34,347 nt of DNA, from the NCBI GenBank assembly GCA_012519255.1, contig JAAYQQ010000060.1, positions 1 to 34,347 of the forward strand, read 5' to 3'. Of this stretch, positions 10,866-20,254 are shown piece after piece. The notes beneath the pieces are model-generated. The model had not been told where the DNA came from and made no database searches. It worked only from the letters and a program-made list of their open reading frames with translations. The position numbers and the translations under genes are program-made. The DNA is from Methanobacteriota archaeon (GTDB taxonomy: Archaea > Thermoplasmatota > Thermoplasmata > Methanomassiliicoccales > Methanomassiliicoccaceae). The number at the start of each line of letters is the position of its first letter. Positions within the stretch are counted from its first letter, which is position 1.

Positions 10866-11528
10866 ATGTATGAGGAGGAGCGACGTCAACTAGTCCATAG
10901 ATTGAAACGCTTTGGGTACGTGAAAAGCGAGAAAATACTCCAGGCCATGGAGAAGGTGCCGCGCCATGAGTTTCTCCCCCTGGAGGCCCGCAGCCACGCC
11001 TACGTCGATTCGCCAATCCCTATCGGACTGGGACAAACCATCTCTGCGCCCCATATGATCGGAATCATGCTGGAAGCGCTGGACCCGCAGCCCGGGAACA
11101 AGGTGCTGGAAATAGGGGCAGGGTCAGGCTACCATGCCGCCCTGATGGGAGAGTTGGTACGTCCCAATGGGAAGGTATATACCGTGGAGCGCCTGGAGGC
11201 GCTGGGTCTGCAGGCTCGAGAAACGATCAATAGGCTTGGGTTCGGGGACGTTGTAGAGGTGTCCATCGCCGATGGCTCTGCTGGCCTGGCAGAGCATGCT
11301 CCTTATGATCGCATCACCGTTGCCGCCGCTGCCCCAGCCGTCCCGAGGCCTCTGGAGGAGCAGCTTGCCGACAATGGTCGCCTTCTCGTGCCGGTAGGAG
11401 ATCGAGGATATCAAGACCTAATACTGGTGGTTCGACGAGGCGACCATCTGGAGCGCAGTGAGCTGGGAGGGGTGGTATTTGTCCCGCTCATAGGCCAACA
11501 TGGTTACGACAATTCGCCTCTTCCATAA
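10866..11528 (+). CDS. pcm: Protein-L-isoaspartate O-methyltransferase
   Basis: VPRHEFLP, YVDSPIPIGLGQTISAPHM, VLEIGAGSGYHAALM, GRLLVPVGDRGYQDL. Confidence 0.95.
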   Translation: MYEEERRQLVHRLKRFGYVKSEKILQAMEKVPRHEFLPLEARSHAYVDSPIPIGLGQTISAPHMIGIMLEALDPQPGNKVLEIGAGSGYHAALMGELVRPNGKVYTVERLEALGLQARETINRLGFGDVVEVSIADGSAGLAEHAPYDRITVAAAAPAVPRPLEEQLADNGRLLVPVGDRGYQDLILVVRRGDHLERSELGGVVFVPLIGQHGYDNSPLP

Positions 11529-12192
11529 TTGGCCCCAATACCTCGCGCAGGTCGTGGGCATGCATGACAACGTCAGCATTCTTCTGCACGTGATCATCGA
11601 TGGGGTTGAAGGCGATAGATAGGCCAGATGCGGAGAACATGGATACGTCCACAAAGCTGTTCCCTATGGCCACGGTCCTGGTTTCCTCGACGCCGTAAAT
11701 GTCCTGGAAATAACGGAGGGCCTTTCCCTTGTTGGTAAGGTCAACTCTTAACACTCCCTCTCCGGTGAGCATACCTTTGGGATCGCACTCCAATCCATTG
11801 GCCAGATAACCATCGAAACCATGATTCTTTGCTATCCGTCTCGCAGTCATGTCCAGACCCCCACTGACGATGACTGCCTTGGCCCCATGGCGGTGCAGCT
11901 CCTTCACGGTCTCACTGATCCCGTTGATAATTGGTACTGGTTCAAGTATGCGTTCGATGTCACTTCTGTGAATGTCTGCTTTAATCTTTATCCATTTGCC
12001 AATATCTCGCCGCATGAACTCTCGGTCGTCGATGCGCCCCTCGATATAATCGATAAGGGTGGCCTCATTATCGATCTTGAAATGGTCATGGACCCAGGTC
12101 CAGGAAGACGTGTAGTCAACCAGCACCCCATCCATGTCGAAGGCGATGAGACCCCATTGAGGTTCCATATTGAGATAGAATTCAAACCTCAT
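11488..12192 (-). CDS. SerB-like HAD-superfamily phosphatase
   Basis: FDMDGVLVDYTSSW (HAD motif I), VIVSGGLDMTAR (II), KGKALRYF (III), VAIGNSFVDVSMF (IV). Confidence 0.88.
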   Translation of the reverse strand: MRFEFYLNMEPQWGLIAFDMDGVLVDYTSSWTWVHDHFKIDNEATLIDYIEGRIDDREFMRRDIGKWIKIKADIHRSDIERILEPVPIINGISETVKELHRHGAKAVIVSGGLDMTARRIAKNHGFDGYLANGLECDPKGMLTGEGVLRVDLTNKGKALRYFQDIYGVEETRTVAIGNSFVDVSMFSASGLSIAFNPIDDHVQKNADVVMHAHDLREVLGPIMEEANCRNHVGL

Positions 12193-12227
12193 TGATTTAG
12201 CTTTTGGAGCTGGCTTCGTTGATAGAG

Positions 12228-12274
12228 ATGATATATGGTCCAGGCATCAAGCTGGCCTTGACTGTAGGTATCAT
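12228..12274 (+). pseudogene. 5' fragment of a small membrane-protein gene interrupted by the 12269-18958 element
   Basis: ATG at 12228 encodes MIYGPGIKLALTVGI; joined at TATCAT it is in phase with the 18959-19091 fragment. Confidence 0.75.
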
Positions 12275-12333
12275 GGATTGGGGGAGTATCTGGCCGACAA
12301 TGGTGAGGACATTATCAATAGCGTAGGGCCTCA

Positions 12334-13125
12334 TCATCTCGCTCCCAGTACGTGAACGGTCATATCGTCCCATGAGATCTCCATGGGCACTCGGCCTATG
12401 TCCATCGCAGCGGTGGTCTCCGCGTAATAATAAACTGTACGATCATGGGTTACGTTGGCGCCGCCGTAGGGGCCACTGATGCCGGCGGCCATATGGCCGC
12501 CCATTGGCGTATCCAGCATGGCCAGCAGGACGGCCGGGCGATCGAGCGCATGCATGACACTGACGTATAGGATGGCCAGGTCCTCGCAGTCGCCGCCGCT
12601 ATCCATCAGCGTCTCGATCGGGTACTTCGGGTACTCCTCGACGCCATGGTAATCGAGGTCCGCCCGGTAATCGAGGCTTCGCACGAACGACAGCGCCAGC
12701 GTGGCGGGGTCGCCGCTCAGGGCCTCGATGGACTCGGCGAGGGCGATCACGGCGAGGTCATCGGGAACCAGGTACAGCGCGTAGGAGTCCAGTGTAACCT
12801 TGCCGCGGGCGGTCTGTCTGGCACTATAATAGTCTCCGGTGGAGAGCTCCATCGATAGTTGATAATGCCGGCCTCCATGTGTCCAATTGTATTGCTTTGT
12901 GACGGTCTCGCCGATGGCGGGAGGCTCAGGCTCGCAGGCATCGAATGAGGGCGCGGGTGGAGGAACCAATAGGAGGCCCGCCAGGAAGATGGTGACGAGC
13001 GCCACGGTCAGGCAACCCCATTGTCGTCGGATGCCGTACCACAGCAATGCCCCCACGGTCATGGCAGTCAGTAGAGCAGCCAGTCCCATGCCCAACTGAT
13101 GCAGCAGTTCTCCGATCATAACCAT
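12334..13125 (-). CDS. Transglutaminase-like cysteine protease with N-terminal TM hairpin
   Basis: Cys in YPIETLMDSGGDCEDLAILYVSVMHAL, His in GGHMAAGISG, acidic residue in TVYYYAETT; two N-terminal TM segments. Confidence 0.85.
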   Translation of the reverse strand: MVMIGELLHQLGMGLAALLTAMTVGALLWYGIRRQWGCLTVALVTIFLAGLLLVPPPAPSFDACEPEPPAIGETVTKQYNWTHGGRHYQLSMELSTGDYYSARQTARGKVTLDSYALYLVPDDLAVIALAESIEALSGDPATLALSFVRSLDYRADLDYHGVEEYPKYPIETLMDSGGDCEDLAILYVSVMHALDRPAVLLAMLDTPMGGHMAAGISGPYGGANVTHDRTVYYYAETTAAMDIGRVPMEISWDDMTVHVLGAR

Positions 13126-14903
13126 CCCATGATCGTCCCGGCGCTGGCGATGATTGCGATGGCCACCAAGGCACCGATGAGCGCCAGCCAGTGCCGTCGG
13201 CTCATTGCGCCCACCATGACGATGAGTCCGCCAGAGAGCAGGCCGATCAGTTGGATGAGCGCGATGACTATACCTTCATCGAGCACGTGGATGGGCGTCC
13301 ACGGCTCTGGCCGCTCGATCGGGTCCCATTCTTCGATTGACATGATCTCCAGATCAATGGTGTCGACCGCCTCGCCTCGGTGGACAAGTTGGGCCACCTC
13401 CAGTTGATAATGGGGCTCCATGGCGATGATCTGTGCGTGGAAGCTGCTTGACCCCGACCACGTGGACAGGTCATTGGTCTCGCCCCATAGGGCGATGATG
13501 CCAGACTGGGTGGCCGTGTTGGTGCCCTTGCCTATGCGCCAATCATCCAACCAGACGTATGGCGTGAACACGACGGACTCATAGAGCAAAGTGCCGGAAG
13601 CGTCGTAGACGTTGCCCCTCAAGTACAGATCTATGCTATCGGGTGCCAATTTCCATCCTGTGGCCGTGAGGTTGCCACCTATCCTCTCATAGTAATCATG
13701 CACCTGGCGGAGATAGAGGGTCGTTAGGATGGCCATTTGTTCATCAGATATCTCCATGTCTGGGATGTCCGGCACAAGTGAGGATGGGGAGATGAGGATG
13801 TTGGACTCTTTAGCCCCCTCGTATATGCGCCACGCTGCCGATGCTGCGGCGCTGGCCTTGGTAAGCGATTGCTCCACTGAGCGAATCATGTCGTCATAGT
13901 GCTGGAGGACGGGCATGAGGCTGATGGGCCCGAATATCATGCCAGTGCCAGCGTCGACGGCCAGTGCCAGGTTGGAGCATGTATTGCCCCATAGCTGCAC
14001 CGCTCCGCCATCGTAGGCGGCCAGGGATATCCCGTCGGGCGATGATATAACTGCCCCAGAGTGCAGGACGCAGGCATCTGCTGCCAGGGCTGGGAGGATG
14101 CCGCCAGCGTAGCTACCGGCGGATAGCTGATAGACGCCCGGGACGATGCCAGCCAACTCGTTGTGGCCTTGCTTTAGCGAGTATTCGGCGCCATCCATCG
14201 CGGTGGCGGTACCGGTGCTGAATGCCCAGAGGCCATCTCCGGTGAGGTAGACCTTATTAACGTCCGCCGTCGCGGTGATGCATGGGCGGATGCTGAGACC
14301 CAGAGCAGAGTCGTAAGCATGGGAGGTGCGCCCATACTGCAACTGGAATGCCATGGAGTCATAACCCTCGGTGTTCTGCCAGGCAGTCAAGCGCTCGTTG
14401 AGCAGTTCGTAAGTTGCGTCTGGTCCGTCGTTGATATTTCGCATCAGTTGAGCCATATTGTAGTACAGCCCGGCGCGCTCGGTAATGGCCTGAGCGGAGT
14501 ACGGTTGACCGGTCGGCCATCGCTCCGCCGCTGCCACCTCGGCCTGACGCATCCAGTAGGCGTTGGTAAACCTCCAGCTGTCGCTGTAGCCGTCGATGCT
14601 ATGAGCAATGAGCTCACTATTGAGACTGAGAATCGTGTGTACGAGTTCGGCTTCGTGCTCGCGGCCTACACTGTCTCCAGCGCCTGGCTTTGACTTGTCG
14701 TCGAGGTACTCACTAAGATGCCAGCCAGCGGCCATGCCAGCGGCGAATGCTACGCCAATAACTACCGCGCTGGCGACGAAGCCCATCTCGGTTTCCTGCA
14801 CTTCGGCGGGTACGGGCCGAGCGACCGCCGACGGCGCCATGGTGGCAATCAGCAGCAGACCAGCAATTACCATGACCAAGAAGGCATGAAATGCGCGTCT
14901 CAG
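13116..14903 (-). CDS. Large secreted/membrane protein of unknown fold with signal peptide and C-terminal TM hairpin (ORF track start TTG 14879; possible CTG start at 14903)
   Basis: MVMVIAGLLLIATMAPSAVA signal; C-term VIALIQLIGLLSGGLIVMVGAMSRRHWLALIGALVAIAIIASAGTIMGWL; overlaps the next gene by 10 bp. Confidence 0.8.
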   Translation of the reverse strand: MRRAFHAFLVMVIAGLLLIATMAPSAVARPVPAEVQETEMGFVASAVVIGVAFAAGMAAGWHLSEYLDDKSKPGAGDSVGREHEAELVHTILSLNSELIAHSIDGYSDSWRFTNAYWMRQAEVAAAERWPTGQPYSAQAITERAGLYYNMAQLMRNINDGPDATYELLNERLTAWQNTEGYDSMAFQLQYGRTSHAYDSALGLSIRPCITATADVNKVYLTGDGLWAFSTGTATAMDGAEYSLKQGHNELAGIVPGVYQLSAGSYAGGILPALAADACVLHSGAVISSPDGISLAAYDGGAVQLWGNTCSNLALAVDAGTGMIFGPISLMPVLQHYDDMIRSVEQSLTKASAAASAAWRIYEGAKESNILISPSSLVPDIPDMEISDEQMAILTTLYLRQVHDYYERIGGNLTATGWKLAPDSIDLYLRGNVYDASGTLLYESVVFTPYVWLDDWRIGKGTNTATQSGIIALWGETNDLSTWSGSSSFHAQIIAMEPHYQLEVAQLVHRGEAVDTIDLEIMSIEEWDPIERPEPWTPIHVLDEGIVIALIQLIGLLSGGLIVMVGAMSRRHWLALIGALVAIAIIASAGTIMGWL

Positions 14904-16183
14904 GTGAACACCTCCGGATGAGCCATCAGCCAGATCATCAGTGATGCAATCGCCAGAATTATGGTTAGTATAAGCGCGTCGCGCCGCCTGGTGATTCCTG
15001 TAATGATCAGGGCGATGAGCGCAACGATGGATAGGAGGATGACGAGATGGCCCGTATAGTGTTCAACGACGTCCTCGCCATCGCCGCTCGCGTTGAGCTG
15101 CCAACCGGCAGTAAGGGTCAGATCGGTGGTGATCGGGGCGGAGAGATCGTATAACTCTCCGCCGACATACCAGCCGGTGAACTCATATCCATTTCTGACC
15201 GGCTCCCGAGGCGCAATGATGGTGGCGCCATGCTGAACGATCTGATGGCTCATGATGGTCCCGTCTACTCTGAATGATACGGTGTGGCCCGGGACCTCGC
15301 CGACGGTCTGGACAGTTACCACGGTTGACGAGCGGACAAAATTGGACCACTGGCCAGAGCGTACGGTAATTGTGTAATCGCCGGGTAAGGCATACTGGTG
15401 GCTCATCTCGCTATTGATGGTATTGTCGCCCCAGTCTACCTGGTGAATAGTGTACTCGGTCGGCAGGTCATCACTGATCATCAGCGCCACGGTGTTGTTG
15501 ATGATGCTCATGCGAAAATGCTCGCGCCATTCTGCCGTTAACGTTAGATCAGAGGATACTGAGGAGCCCCAATTGTAGGTGTTGCCGCGTTCATCTGTCC
15601 AGCGATGGACAACATATCGATCTCGGGTCAGATCTGGCTCATAGATCGCGGTGCCAGATAGGACAGTGATGGCGCCATCCCGCATGGGAATCGTTCCCGC
15701 GGAGGTCGAGACCTCGGCTGGCATTGGGTCGGAGATCAGACTTATGGTATGGGGCAGTTGCTGGACGTTGATCGTCCACTCGGCGCCATATACCACATTC
15801 TGACCTACGAAGAATGGGATAATGATCGGATAGGCGCCAGGCTCTGCAGGGGTGCCAGAGACCAGTATCTTTCCGTCGCCCTGACTGATCGTCAGCCAGG
15901 ATGGGAAATCTTTCCCTGGTACGACAAAGCGACCAGAGTCGCAATTGGCCCATGCCATGATATCGTCGCCTAGGCCATCGTACGCTCTCTCCAGGCGTGA
16001 CGGTAGATAGTCTACCAGATCGATGCTGTATTCCTGGCCGACCCGTGCAGACGTAGGTATCCATGGGGTGCTGGCCCCTGGCGCGCCACTGGCCTGGGTC
16101 AGCGCTGCAAATGGGGCAGCCAGGAGGATGATGAGGGCGGCGAACGCCCCTGCCATCATTAAAGGAGTTCTCCATCCCCTCAT
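14900..16183 (-). CDS. Secreted surface protein with putative Ig (He_PIG-like), PKD-like and InlB B-repeat-like (Flg_new) domains and C-terminal TM hairpin
   Basis: LTISQGDGKILVSGTPAEPGAYPIII; VDWGDNTINSEMSHQYALPGDYTITV; GYEFTGWYVGGELYDLSAPITTDLTLTAGWQ; C-term ILLSIVALIALIITGITRRRDALILTIILAIASLMIWLM. Confidence 0.85.
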   Translation of the reverse strand: MRGWRTPLMMAGAFAALIILLAAPFAALTQASGAPGASTPWIPTSARVGQEYSIDLVDYLPSRLERAYDGLGDDIMAWANCDSGRFVVPGKDFPSWLTISQGDGKILVSGTPAEPGAYPIIIPFFVGQNVVYGAEWTINVQQLPHTISLISDPMPAEVSTSAGTIPMRDGAITVLSGTAIYEPDLTRDRYVVHRWTDERGNTYNWGSSVSSDLTLTAEWREHFRMSIINNTVALMISDDLPTEYTIHQVDWGDNTINSEMSHQYALPGDYTITVRSGQWSNFVRSSTVVTVQTVGEVPGHTVSFRVDGTIMSHQIVQHGATIIAPREPVRNGYEFTGWYVGGELYDLSAPITTDLTLTAGWQLNASGDGEDVVEHYTGHLVILLSIVALIALIITGITRRRDALILTIILAIASLMIWLMAHPEVFT

Positions 16184-17901
16184 ATAATTCCCAGGTGTGC
16201 CAGGGCAGCGATGAGCAAGGCGGCTATGCCGACAATGGCAATCAATGGATGGCGTACTCGGGCAAGATATGCGACCACAAGGATGCCGCCGATAATTGCC
16301 AATACGGCAGTGCCATACCGCTCAATGAAGGTCCCATCTTCTACAATGGCGTTGGAATCATCAGCGATGTTGGGGTCATCCACACTGCCATCGTCGTTGG
16401 GAGGGTTGGCTGGATCATCAACAGTCTCACCCACATTCACCGCAGTGACGGAGGATACAGAGTGATCCAGGTTGTCAGTCACGGTCACGCGGATGGTATA
16501 TGTTCCGTCAGCCACGTACTTATGGCTCACTGAGGTCACACCGCAATATTCTACCCCATCGCCCATCTCCCAGACGATGCTGGAGTAGCTGTTAGCCACC
16601 ACGCTGGCGGTGACCGTGCGCCCATCCACGGTAGAGATAATGTTGGACACCGATGGTTCGGTGACAAATACTAGCCTGTCCCAGACCTTGATGGTAAGTG
16701 TCTGGGTAGCGGTCTGGAGAGAGCCGCCGGCATCACTGGATGCCCTGAGCGTCACCGTAGTTTCCGGTATCGGAGCAGAGCAGGGTACTGTCAGGACGCC
16801 GCCAGATAGGGTCATGCCGCCGACGAGTCCGGTAGCGGTAAGCTCGGCACCTTCTGGCACTATAACAGGCGTATAGGTCCAGTCGTGGTTACCCTCGACC
16901 AACCAGACGGTGGTACCGGTACCCTCGTGGTTGGTTGGTGTGCTGTCAATTCCCACATTAACATAGGTGGTGATGGTAGCTGTCATGGTCTTGGATTGAG
17001 AGATACCACCGGCGGAGGCAGTGGCGGTAATGGTCACGGAGGTAGCCCCCTCGACGTTGGCGGCCGTGCTACGCGCCAGGATCCAGGAGCTCTCAGAGTT
17101 CTTGGTGAGCGTATAGCCGGCCGTGGTCGCCTCGGCATTGAGCGCCAGCGTGACCTCGCTGGTGGCGTCGGGATCGACGTCGGAGACGCTGATTCCAGTG
17201 GAGTAGGATTTACCGGCCCACGAGCTCGGAGGGATGGATCCAGAGAGAGTCAGAGGGTTGTATACGCGGAACTCAATGGTTTGATACGCGTAGCGGACCG
17301 GACCGCCGTCATTACTGGTGGCCCTGATTATCACGGTCTGTTTACCGGTCTTGGCAGTGCCGCTGATGATGTCACCTGATAGTGTTAGACCTACCGTGGC
17401 CAGATCGCCAGAGGAGACAGAGAATGTAGACGGTACGTTCGTCTCCATCTGATAATTGAATGTGTCACCAGCCAGCATGTTAATTATAATGGGCTCTGGC
17501 TGGTAGACGTTGATGGCCCACTGGCATGAGCCTGCGTTTGAACCATGAACAATAAACATGGCAGTGACAGTGTAAGAGCCGGTCTCGGTAGGCGTCCCAG
17601 AGACTGTTACTTTACCCCCGCCTTGAGTCACGGTCAGCCATGAAGGAGCGTTGTAAAGATTGACCTCTGCGCAAGATGGCGGATTGTTTGCCCCATCACG
17701 CCCCCATCCAGCATAATCCGCGCCCATGTATTCTAAAAGTTCAACACAGTAGAGCTGTCCTACCTGGGTATTGGTCTGTATGCCTGATGGATCTACCACA
17801 TCAGCACCCATTACGATGCCGACTGGCGCCAGTGTCGCAAATGGGGCAGCCAGGAGAATGATTGTCGCAAAGAGAGTTATGGTAGCAGTAGAGTATTTCA
17901 T
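16180..17901 (-). CDS. Secreted surface protein with repeated putative Ig domains, a PKD domain and C-terminal TM hairpin
   Basis: Signal MKYSTATITLFATIILLAAPFATLA; LTVTQGGGKVTVSGTPTETGSYTVTA; WEMGDGVEYCGVTSVSHKYVADGTYTIRVTVTD; C-term AVLAIIGGILVVAYLARVRHPLIAIVGIAALLIAALA; ATGA overlap with downstream gene. Confidence 0.87.
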   Translation of the reverse strand: MKYSTATITLFATIILLAAPFATLAPVGIVMGADVVDPSGIQTNTQVGQLYCVELLEYMGADYAGWGRDGANNPPSCAEVNLYNAPSWLTVTQGGGKVTVSGTPTETGSYTVTAMFIVHGSNAGSCQWAINVYQPEPIIINMLAGDTFNYQMETNVPSTFSVSSGDLATVGLTLSGDIISGTAKTGKQTVIIRATSNDGGPVRYAYQTIEFRVYNPLTLSGSIPPSSWAGKSYSTGISVSDVDPDATSEVTLALNAEATTAGYTLTKNSESSWILARSTAANVEGATSVTITATASAGGISQSKTMTATITTYVNVGIDSTPTNHEGTGTTVWLVEGNHDWTYTPVIVPEGAELTATGLVGGMTLSGGVLTVPCSAPIPETTVTLRASSDAGGSLQTATQTLTIKVWDRLVFVTEPSVSNIISTVDGRTVTASVVANSYSSIVWEMGDGVEYCGVTSVSHKYVADGTYTIRVTVTDNLDHSVSSVTAVNVGETVDDPANPPNDDGSVDDPNIADDSNAIVEDGTFIERYGTAVLAIIGGILVVAYLARVRHPLIAIVGIAALLIAALAHLGII

Positions 17902-17902
17902 G

Positions 17903-17917
17903 GCGCGTTGAACGCGC
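17903..17917. promoter_or_regulatory. Palindrome GCGCGT-TGA-ACGCGC directly upstream of the start codon of the first surface gene
   Basis: Perfect 6-bp inverted repeat with 3-nt spacer, 1 bp from the ATG at 17901. Confidence 0.5.
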
Positions 17918-17961
17918 TAACTTCCTATCAGAATAATTTTTCCAAAGAAATGATAAAGTTT

Positions 17962-18939
17962 TTAATGTCGCAGGTAACGAGACATGAAGGTTTTGAGAAT
18001 CCATGGCGCGTAAATCCTAATCATGCATACAACACGGATGGCGTTAGCGACAATATCGGATTTGGGTCGGCCAGTAATGAGATTTAGTTGATCAATAAGA
18101 TTCACAACATCCGAAGGCAGGGAGTAGCTTCGACAGGTCCGTGAGGATTTTGCCCGAGCGCCAGTCACCACATCTCTTTGCATCCCAGAGCCCTGTCCTA
18201 GATAGGTGAACGAGGTGGTCGTCTCGTGCCGGAAATTATCATTATTTTCGACACCCTCATTTTCCTCATGTTTACCTATGCATCCACTTCCCCCACCCTT
18301 CCTAGCGTCTATTGAAATATTGAATCTGGAGAGATAGTCATAGAGCGTCGAGCGAGGAATCCCTAGACGGGCAGCAAGCCGTTTTTTAGATATGTTTGGT
18401 TCCTGGGAGAGGATTTGTTCTATGTCTTCTCGGCGTACAGGAAACTTTCCCCCATTGGCTTCGTACCCTCGGCGAGGTCGACCACTATGTATTCTCCGAC
18501 CCCCTCCCCTTGCCGTGTAATTTAAGCACCCATCTCTTATCAGCCCTCGTTCGAACTCCGCCAGGGCACCTAGAATATGGATTATTGTGCCTCCGCTAGC
18601 GGGGCTTATCTCTATTCGTTGATCCACGCAGATCAGGTTTATGCCCCATGAGTCCAGGTCCTCCATTATTGATAGTAGGTTGGTCAGACTGCGCATTATC
18701 TGGGAGAGGCGCGCTATTATGATCGTGTCGAACTTGCGTTGCCGGGCGTCACCCATCATCTGATCCAGCTGGGGATGATGATGCTCCGCCTCTGATACTC
18801 CATCAACATAAATGTACAAGGGGCTTACCTCGTAGCCCCTGGAATTGGCGAACCTTTTCAGCTCATTGAGTTGACAATCCAGGCTCTGGGGCCCTTTGAC
18901 CTCTGAGGGAGATACACGGGCGTAAAGAGCGGCCCTCAC
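17962..18939 (-). CDS. Serine recombinase (resolvase/invertase type) with HTH and C-terminal ribbon-helix-helix-like domain
   Basis: MRAALYARVS N-term; ALAEFERGLIRD; HTH ISKKRLAARLGIPRSTLYDYL; RHH-like RSYSLPSDVVNLIDQLNLITGRPKSDIVANAIRVV; GTG start. Confidence 0.9.
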   Translation of the reverse strand: MRAALYARVSPSEVKGPQSLDCQLNELKRFANSRGYEVSPLYIYVDGVSEAEHHHPQLDQMMGDARQRKFDTIIIARLSQIMRSLTNLLSIMEDLDSWGINLICVDQRIEISPASGGTIIHILGALAEFERGLIRDGCLNYTARGGGRRIHSGRPRRGYEANGGKFPVRREDIEQILSQEPNISKKRLAARLGIPRSTLYDYLSRFNISIDARKGGGSGCIGKHEENEGVENNDNFRHETTTSFTYLGQGSGMQRDVVTGARAKSSRTCRSYSLPSDVVNLIDQLNLITGRPKSDIVANAIRVVCMIRIYAPWILKTFMSRYLRH

Positions 18940-18958
18940 TGCATCAGCCTCTTATCAT

Positions 18959-19091
18959 TCATCCGGTACCCGCTCCTATCGTGATCGGACTGCCAGTTCT
19001 CGGCGTGGCAATAATCGCGGCGGGCGGCTATTCCCAGCCTGATACGGGTGAGAATATGAAGGGCATAGGGGCAAGCATGACTGAGACATGA
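18959..19091 (+). pseudogene. 3' fragment of the interrupted small membrane-protein gene
   Basis: Open frame ..IHPVPAPIVIGLPVLGVAIIAAGGYSQPDTGENMKGIGASMTET, stop TGA at 19089-19091. Confidence 0.75.
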
Positions 19092-19525
19092 TCTGTATAT
19101 GAATTGACAATATCCGACGCCTCGCCGCGCTCTATTTATGATGGCCCATACGCTGTCCAAAGCCTTGGAGGAAGGCCGTCCTTTCAATATGGGGATAAAA
19201 TGGCGGAACCTGGTATGTGATTGCCGATAGTGGCCAATGTCTGTACCCATCTCAATGGAGGCAGTCCTGATGGCACTCATGAGAATGCCCGCGCCGATAG
19301 GCAGATCATATTATATCCATGCCCTTTCAAATCGCGATTACGCGAGTGGATAGGTGGCGTATGGTCGATGGTTTTGCGGCGCAATAACAAAATATTCCGA
19401 ATTCTCACCTGGCTTATCTTTTATCTATCAACCCAGCTGCCAACGCAAAGAACTGGGTCATATCCCCTGGCCAGTGCACGAGGTTCAACGAAACCTTATT
19501 GATATTGTTTTGTAATGGTTTGTTA

Positions 19526-20254
19526 ATGATAACGGTGCTGGGAGTTGGCCACGTCTTTGACATTTCCACACAGGTCCGTAAGATCATAGAGGACGAACGG
19601 CCAGATGCAGTATGTGTAGAACTGGATCCACTTCGCTATCAGGCCCTTATCAATCCTCCCCGCGACAATCCAGACGTCCCCCTTGCTTACAATCTCCTCG
19701 CCTCCTTCCAGAGGCGGCTGGCCCGTAGCTATGGGGGGGAAGTCGGAGCAGAGATGCTGGCCGCCATTAAGGCTGCTGGGGCGGTAGGGTCAGAGGTAAT
19801 GCTTATCGATGTTAATGCTACCCAGATGTTCCGTCGACTGTGGCAGGAGATGCCGTCGCTGGAGAAGGTCAAGCTCGGTCTCTCTGCGATATCTTCTCTA
19901 TTTCTGAGCCGTCGGCGGGTGGAGAAGGAGCTGGAGAACTTCCAGGAGCATGAGGAACTCTATCTTGAAGAAATGGCCCAACAGTTCCCAACGCTCAAGC
20001 GTATGCTTATCGATGATCGCAATCACATAATGGCCCAGCGCATTGATGCTGCCGCTTCAGCCTTCCCCAACGTACTGGCAGTAGTGGGGGATGGGCATGT
20101 GGAAGGCATCGTCCGCCTCCTTGGCAGGGATGACATTACGATCATCCGGCTGAGGGAACTGCTTGGACAGGGGAGCATGCCCGTTGACGATCGCGATGGA
20201 AATGCCCAGGCTTGTTTCCATTATGAATATTCACTCCGCGATGAAGCCTTTTAA
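19526..20254 (+). CDS. TraB/PrgY family protein
   Basis: TVLGVGHVFDIS, VCVELDPLRYQAL, DDRNHIMAQRI, LAVVGDGHVEGIVRLL; ATG at 19526 within ORF 19499..20254. Confidence 0.88.
   Translation: MITVLGVGHVFDISTQVRKIIEDERPDAVCVELDPLRYQALINPPRDNPDVPLAYNLLASFQRRLARSYGGEVGAEMLAAIKAAGAVGSEVMLIDVNATQMFRRLWQEMPSLEKVKLGLSAISSLFLSRRRVEKELENFQEHEELYLEEMAQQFPTLKRMLIDDRNHIMAQRIDAAASAFPNVLAVVGDGHVEGIVRLLGRDDITIIRLRELLGQGSMPVDDRDGNAQACFHYEYSLRDEAF

Follow-up and report, generated by a model that had tools for sequence, protein, structure and literature searches.

A VP4-like fusogen and its co-spike genes in a Methanomassiliicoccales chromosome: a probable stranded spike module of a pleolipovirus-like virus

What a compact set of surface-protein genes is doing between two housekeeping genes in the chromosome of a methanogenic archaeon is the question raised by a stretch of 34,347 nucleotides from a member of the Methanomassiliicoccales (contig JAAYQQ010000060.1 of assembly GCA_012519255.1). 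All positions refer to this whole stretch, which we call the window; its genome is designated G000, those of relatives G001 to G006 and so on, and single loci carry L-numbers. On the minus strand, four open reading frames (ORFs) at 12334-17901, named P1 to P4, had been described in an earlier note on this DNA as an operon for a co-assembling surface complex. We propose that they probably stem from a pleomorphic, pleolipovirus-like virus of the Methanomassiliicoccales whose spike module was stranded in the host chromosome, with functions that are predicted throughout. The four genes are as follows:

16180..17901, minus strand: P1, 573 aa, adhesin-like spike protein with signal peptide, Ig-like and PKD domains (PKD_4, E = 1.3e-7) and a C-terminal transmembrane (TM) hairpin (turn ARVRHP)
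14900..16183, minus strand: P2, 427 aa, with signal peptide, He_PIG-like domain, PKD, InlB-type repeats (Flg_new, E = 3.4e-16) and a C-terminal TM hairpin (turn TRRRD)
13116..14903, minus strand: P3, predicted VP4-like fusogen, 595 aa from the inferred start CTG 14903 or 587 aa from TTG 14879
12334..13125, minus strand: P4, predicted LapG/transglutaminase-like enzyme with N-terminal membrane anchor, likely start ATG 13119, residues C180-H211-E236

The argument turns on the identity of P3. Its AlphaFold model (mean pLDDT 80) was compared with BFVD by Foldseek, and the top match was VP4 of Halorubrum pleomorphic virus 11 (HRPV-11; E = 1.4e-8, probability 1.00). When the P3 family profile was aligned with seven VP4 proteins by hhalign, the match covered the C-terminal beta domain only (E = 5.9e-5, probability 65%), against E values of 0.07-0.28 for unrelated control pairs. 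The model consists of a signal peptide, a hydrophobic mature N-terminus (a segment directly behind the signal peptide which had previously been overlooked), a helical N1 bundle with a helix of 38 residues, a beta N2 part, a helical and then beta C-domain and a membrane anchor. This order and the Foldseek result agree with the V-shaped two-domain build of VP4-like fusogens, and P3 likewise shares their signal peptide, hydrophobic mature N-terminus and C-terminal anchor, the latter being a hairpin instead of a single TM segment. HRPV VP5 has the same order of elements, and the fusion peptide proposed for it is its hydrophobic N-terminus (PMC6381117). Searches of P3 against Pfam, PHROGs, PDB sequences, phage records and IMG/VR peptide scans gave no match, nor did the P3 of locus L107 match anything in PHROGs.

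The neighbourhoods of P3 homologues in relatives point in the same direction. Of 147 genomes of the order, 29 gave a match to the family in a profile search. A typical locus contains a run of signal-peptide surface proteins with P3 as the last one; next come a membrane protein, smaller proteins and a nucleoside triphosphatase (NTPase), which in one case showed a weak Zot match. Two NTPase families downstream of P3, A and B, match the pleolipovirus NTPase (E = 1.5e-5 and 1.8e-5), and the match to ORF6 at P3 loci is only suggestive (E = 0.0024). In G006 proviruses, P1- and P2-like genes adjoin P3, and the P1 homologue of provirus L105 scored 376 bits. In the proviruses G003:C1 and G006:C10, the spike operon adjoins a gene for a serine or tyrosine integrase, accompanied in G003 by an RHH gene, and G006:C1 encodes a candidate rolling-circle-type Rep. 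The G003:C1 provirus (L111), from the same genus as the window, is complete and has the order recombinase-RHH-spikes-P3-ORF6-NTPase. In archaeal pleomorphic viruses, the gene order around the spike VP4 resembles these neighbourhoods, and VP4-like proviruses occur in Methanomassiliicoccales (PMC10919331); as related there, VP4-encoding proviruses of this order were reported earlier by Medvedeva et al. 2023. Because fold, VP4 profile, domain order and the provirus neighbourhoods of relatives coincide, P3 is modelled here as a membrane-fusion spike of the VP4-like type found in pleomorphic viruses of archaea (kingdom Trapavirae), with membrane fusion as its predicted activity.

A second copy of the operon was found at locus L001 of G001, another species of the same genus, where P1-P2-P3-P4 follow in identical order (identities of 45, 39, 54 and 60%) at a genomic location other than that of the window. 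Third codon positions differ between the copies at 0.66-0.71 of the sites and second positions at 0.27-0.39; therefore, all four genes have evolved as proteins since the copies parted. Within the window, P1 and P2 are paralogous at their N-terminal domains (39% identity; He_PIG-like in P2). The P3 frame is open upstream of TTG 14879 as far as CTG 14903, which yields a normal signal peptide with the n-region MRRAFHAF. Because this CTG overlaps the P2 stop (CTGA) and the L001 homologue starts at a TTGA in the equivalent place, P3 probably starts at CTG 14903. The P1/P2 and P3/P4 junctions are ATGA overlaps if P4 is taken from ATG 13119, and all three junctions are thus overlaps of 4 bp. The four-gene operon described in the earlier note is accordingly borne out by the ORF coordinates, and its same-order check in other archaea succeeded with G001. 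The tight coupling of the genes is real as well, with the correction that the 20-bp gap between P2 and P3 is probably a 4-bp overlap. Domain matches and L001 also uphold the description of Ig/PKD/InlB-repeat surface proteins together with a protease-like enzyme, whose homologues occur together elsewhere. The 'unknown 587-aa protein' still has no Pfam match, and is now assigned as a VP4-like fusogen of likely 595 aa.

P1, P2 and P3 each begin with a signal peptide and end in two TM segments joined by a short Arg/His turn, and these hairpins are kept in L001. Within the P3 family, almost all complete members have the C-terminal hairpin, with turns such as TRNP, RRNI and TRRY, and at least one further hairpin-anchored protein is encoded at 15 of the 21 P3 loci with readable upstream genes. 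As a rough control, a 211-kb sample of G000 was analysed by simple hydropathy, and none of 119 host proteins of at least 200 aa consisted of signal peptide, ectodomain and C-terminal TM only. The architecture is therefore not general in the host, and the hairpin anchor is predicted to be mainly a property of the virus spike module. The earlier claim of a hairpin with a basic turn in all four products holds for P1-P3, along with their signal peptides and predicted external ectodomains, and fails for P4: the L001 homologue has a single N-terminal TM segment, as do the enzymes linked to the operons of G035, G049 and G051, and AlphaFold places one low-confidence helix at residues 3-52 of P4. Because the P4 hairpin is not conserved, we rejected the co-assembly that had been derived from a hairpin common to P1-P4; a pilin-like reading of the hairpin was rejected as insignificant (E of about 2).

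Several spike proteins of L107 (11166-15546) and L111 (9567-13767) lack a C-terminal TM segment and end at the stop in TSxPSNGVIAYA or TNSPAxGAIAYV. This strand-like end corresponds to the motif which leads into the PKD domain and hairpin in P1, and such chains may possibly dock onto hairpin-anchored partners.

The AlphaFold model of P4 (mean pLDDT 84) gave LapG as the top Foldseek match in the PDB (4u65_E, E = 3.3e-5, probability 1.00), followed by transglutaminases (4xz7, E = 2.6e-4), and the Pfam Transglut_core score of 14.8 bits stayed under the cut-off of 23 bits. C180, H211 and E236 are invariant in 12 homologues, and the Cys-His-acidic motif is kept at the other loci carrying such an enzyme. 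P4 is thus modelled as an outward-facing LapG-like cysteine protease or transglutaminase of predicted activity. LapG is a protease that cleaves surface adhesins. The LapG proteins of Legionella and Pseudomonas resemble P4 in fold, the GDCED Cys motif, the His and acidic residues and the adjoining adhesin genes; P4 differs in being archaeal and membrane-anchored, in having Glu in an ETT motif as the third residue, and in that neither a LapD nor a conserved cleavage site was found. The idea of a LapG-type AAG cleavage site in P3 was abandoned for lack of conservation in L001.

The chromosomal setting adds three further features:

12215..19490 (approximate), no strand: insertion of about 7.3 kb between the HAD gene (11488-12192) and the TraB gene (19499-20254)
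17962..18939, minus strand: serine recombinase fused to an RHH-like C-terminal domain (Resolvase, E = 1.1e-24)
17903..17917, no strand: palindrome GCGCGTTCAACGCGC, 15 bp, directly before the P1 start, a possible operator judged from its sequence

In most genomes of the family, the HAD and TraB housekeeping genes lie side by side in divergent orientation with at most tens of bases between them, and the insertion contains nothing besides P1-P4, the recombinase-RHH gene and some doubtful small ORFs. Alignments to the TP901-1 integrase and to the recombinase and RHH genes of the G003 provirus place H, S and Q at the equivalents of R45, D67 and R68, which we take from gamma-delta resolvase to have their roles at the active site; because these residues are replaced, the recombinase is probably inactive. 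NTPase family A, the NTPase type of the nearest P3 relative (L104) and ORF6 were absent genome-wide from G000 and G001 in searches that match relatives, no VP3-like small multi-TM gene lies downstream of P3 in the window (the search covering this region and not the genome), and no direct repeats of at least 14 bp connect the insertion ends, where shorter core sites are possible. Lacking an NTPase, an ORF6-like and a VP3-like gene, and with a recombinase that is probably dead, the insertion is by its predicted gene content not a self-sufficient virus.

The HAD-TraB interval (12192-19499 in the window; also L153, L154 and L157) varies within the genus: it is empty in G002 and G003, holds the spike cassette in G000, NikR-like and ZnuABC-like genes (a NikR/zinc-transporter block) in G001 and G005, and a NikR-like gene only in G004. 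At about 3062-3080 of L001, a palindrome also stands directly before the P1 start, with a sequence unlike that at 17903-17917, and the two are possible candidate operators for the RHH protein.

Across the order, the P3 loci fall into two exclusive classes. Viewed with longer flanks, nine loci lack an NTPase and encode a LapG/transglutaminase-like enzyme close to the spike genes on the same strand, and 21 have the NTPase, none of them with a LapG-like enzyme; a few loci have neither. For loci with long upstream flanks the split is 9:0 versus 0:11 (Fisher p = 6e-6, an indicative value, as the loci are related). Such enzymes number about two per genome, and we estimate chance co-location at ~0.01 per P3 locus. 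The protease-positive loci are dispersed over the P3 tree, whose well supported branches require at least four changes, and G035 and G051 possess one locus of each class apiece. Small downstream genes are common to the protease-positive loci of G035, G049, G051 and G104, and not across the groups of such loci. The enzyme gene closes the window operon but opens the gut-type operons, which suggests independent recruitment in the two. The NTPase-positive, protease-negative set is assigned to proviruses on its gene content.

How the window operon came to lack the other virus genes can be read in several ways. Plain decay is the main rival: a truncated provirus of no present function would have kept integrase, RHH domain and spike half and lost the downstream half (VP3, ORF6, NTPase, Rep) so recently that the frames are still intact, which we regard as a serious possibility, short of probable. 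The window indeed holds just the first half of the G003 provirus order, with a recombinase already degraded, but the spike genes remained intact although that recombinase carries several active-site changes; moreover, the same four genes end with P4 in G001, again with no detectable NTPase, and protease-positive, NTPase-negative operons recur on at least four branches. We consider it unlikely that the operon belongs to a second kind of mobile element or virus, in which a VP4 spike set and a LapG-like enzyme are combined with other unrecognised or helper-supplied assembly and replication functions. The downstream genes common to G035, G049, G051 and G104, the different site of the locus in G001 and the transglutaminase genes reported for pleomorphic viruses of Archaeoglobi (PMC10919331) would fit such an element, which is opposed by a window insertion of only a spike operon and a probably inactive recombinase and by protease-positive groups that have no downstream genes in common. 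An ordinary host adhesin operon without any virus link, as the first description implied, appears very improbable in view of the VP4 fold and profile, the provirus neighbourhoods of P3 homologues, the adjacent recombinase-RHH gene and the insertion site, even though P2-type InlB repeats are common in surface proteins of a relative (many matches in G006).

The stranded spike module which we favour is supported by the intactness of all four frames in both species (G000 and G001), whose operons occupy different loci, and several points weigh against it. P3 found no Foldseek match in the PDB, and its global TM-scores with VP4 are low (0.24-0.27, for a fold of two flexible domains). No NTPase of family B was detected in G000 or G001 by a search that had no positive control among the genomes of the archaeal family, and a very divergent NTPase could escape detection. 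The genomes are draft metagenome-assembled genomes, and because the G001 contig ends 521 bp after P4, missing virus genes of G001 could lie on another contig. Finally, a test of the protease/NTPase exclusivity on independent pairs was not significant, with too few pairs available.

Compared to known systems, P3 shares fold, domain order, hydrophobic mature N-terminus and C-terminal anchor with the VP4-like fusogens of Pleolipoviridae and Thalassapleoviridae (HRPV-6 VP5, AvPV1 gp06), and the relatives of P3 also share the neighbourhood of NTPase and ORF6-like genes. The window differs in its TM hairpin in place of one TM segment, its several hairpin-anchored Ig/InlB co-spikes and the missing NTPase, ORF6 and VP3. 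In the G003:C1 provirus, a serine recombinase, an RHH protein, the spike operon and a P3-family fusogen follow one another as they do in the window; it differs in having ORF6, NTPase and HExxH genes, no LapG-like enzyme, an intact recombinase active site and a separate RHH gene in place of the fusion. Three features appear new: stranded operons that include a LapG-like enzyme, the mutual exclusion of these and the NTPase, and anchoring by hairpins. No published description of them was found in a comparison that did not extend to the main compendium.

The proviruses of relatives yielded further observations. Downstream of the P3 element nearest to that of the window, L104 (12481-13803) encodes a Rep-like protein with the HUH-type motif GYPHIHMIV and a weak RepSA match (E = 5e-4), suggesting rolling-circle replication of this element. 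A conserved protein with an HExxH motif (HEVVH, HEGIH or HESAH) follows the NTPase at L105 (990-1991), L111 (2283-3401), L107 (2282-3247), L084 (1199-2278) and L115 (12915-14117); the two copies scanned had no Pfam match, and it is a candidate for a new viral metallopeptidase-like family. Just 3' of P3, the loci L087 (8397-8750), L089 (5306-5599), L093 (8024-8353) and L112 (9496-9831) encode small proteins (97-117 aa, 3-4 TM segments) that are candidates for the VP3-like membrane protein. NTPase family A also occurs without a detectable P3-family gene at G010:C2:407612-410172 (L162, together with ORF6) and in G005:C38 (L161), possibly proviruses with a more divergent spike.

If the stranded spike module was retained by selection, the captured operon is possibly kept as an adhesion or fusion system of the host. 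The host would most likely display the spike set on its surface or on vesicles, where P3, held by its C-terminal hairpin, would carry a fusion-peptide-like segment at the mature N-terminus, and the adhesins P1 and P2, anchored likewise, would bind the envelope of a neighbour. P4 would process or release the spikes, and P3 would bring about close contact, fuse membranes or exclude related viruses. It is a more tentative proposal, to which we give less than even credence, that hosts of the order repeatedly captured a VP4 fusogen-adhesin operon, added a LapG-like protease and lost the virion assembly genes, leaving a host-owned surface system for fusion or contact. Syncytins are captured viral fusogens of eukaryotes, in which a virus fusion glycoprotein was kept after the other virus genes were lost. 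The window operon resembles them in that a fusion glycoprotein would be kept without other virus genes, and differs in the unrelated class of fusogen and in a host function of P3 that is only proposed.

The analysis assigns a likely role to a large protein family, whose window member is without a Pfam match and whose window and L107 members are without one in PHROGs. That VP4-like fusogens are paired with a virion NTPase or with a LapG-like enzyme, and never with both, offers a pattern open to testing within the order. Few membrane-fusion proteins of prokaryotes are known, and archaeal ones retained by their hosts would bear on cell fusion, DNA exchange and virus exclusion; the recurrence of spike-plus-enzyme operons without the ATPase in other species hints that hosts may have kept this fusion machinery.

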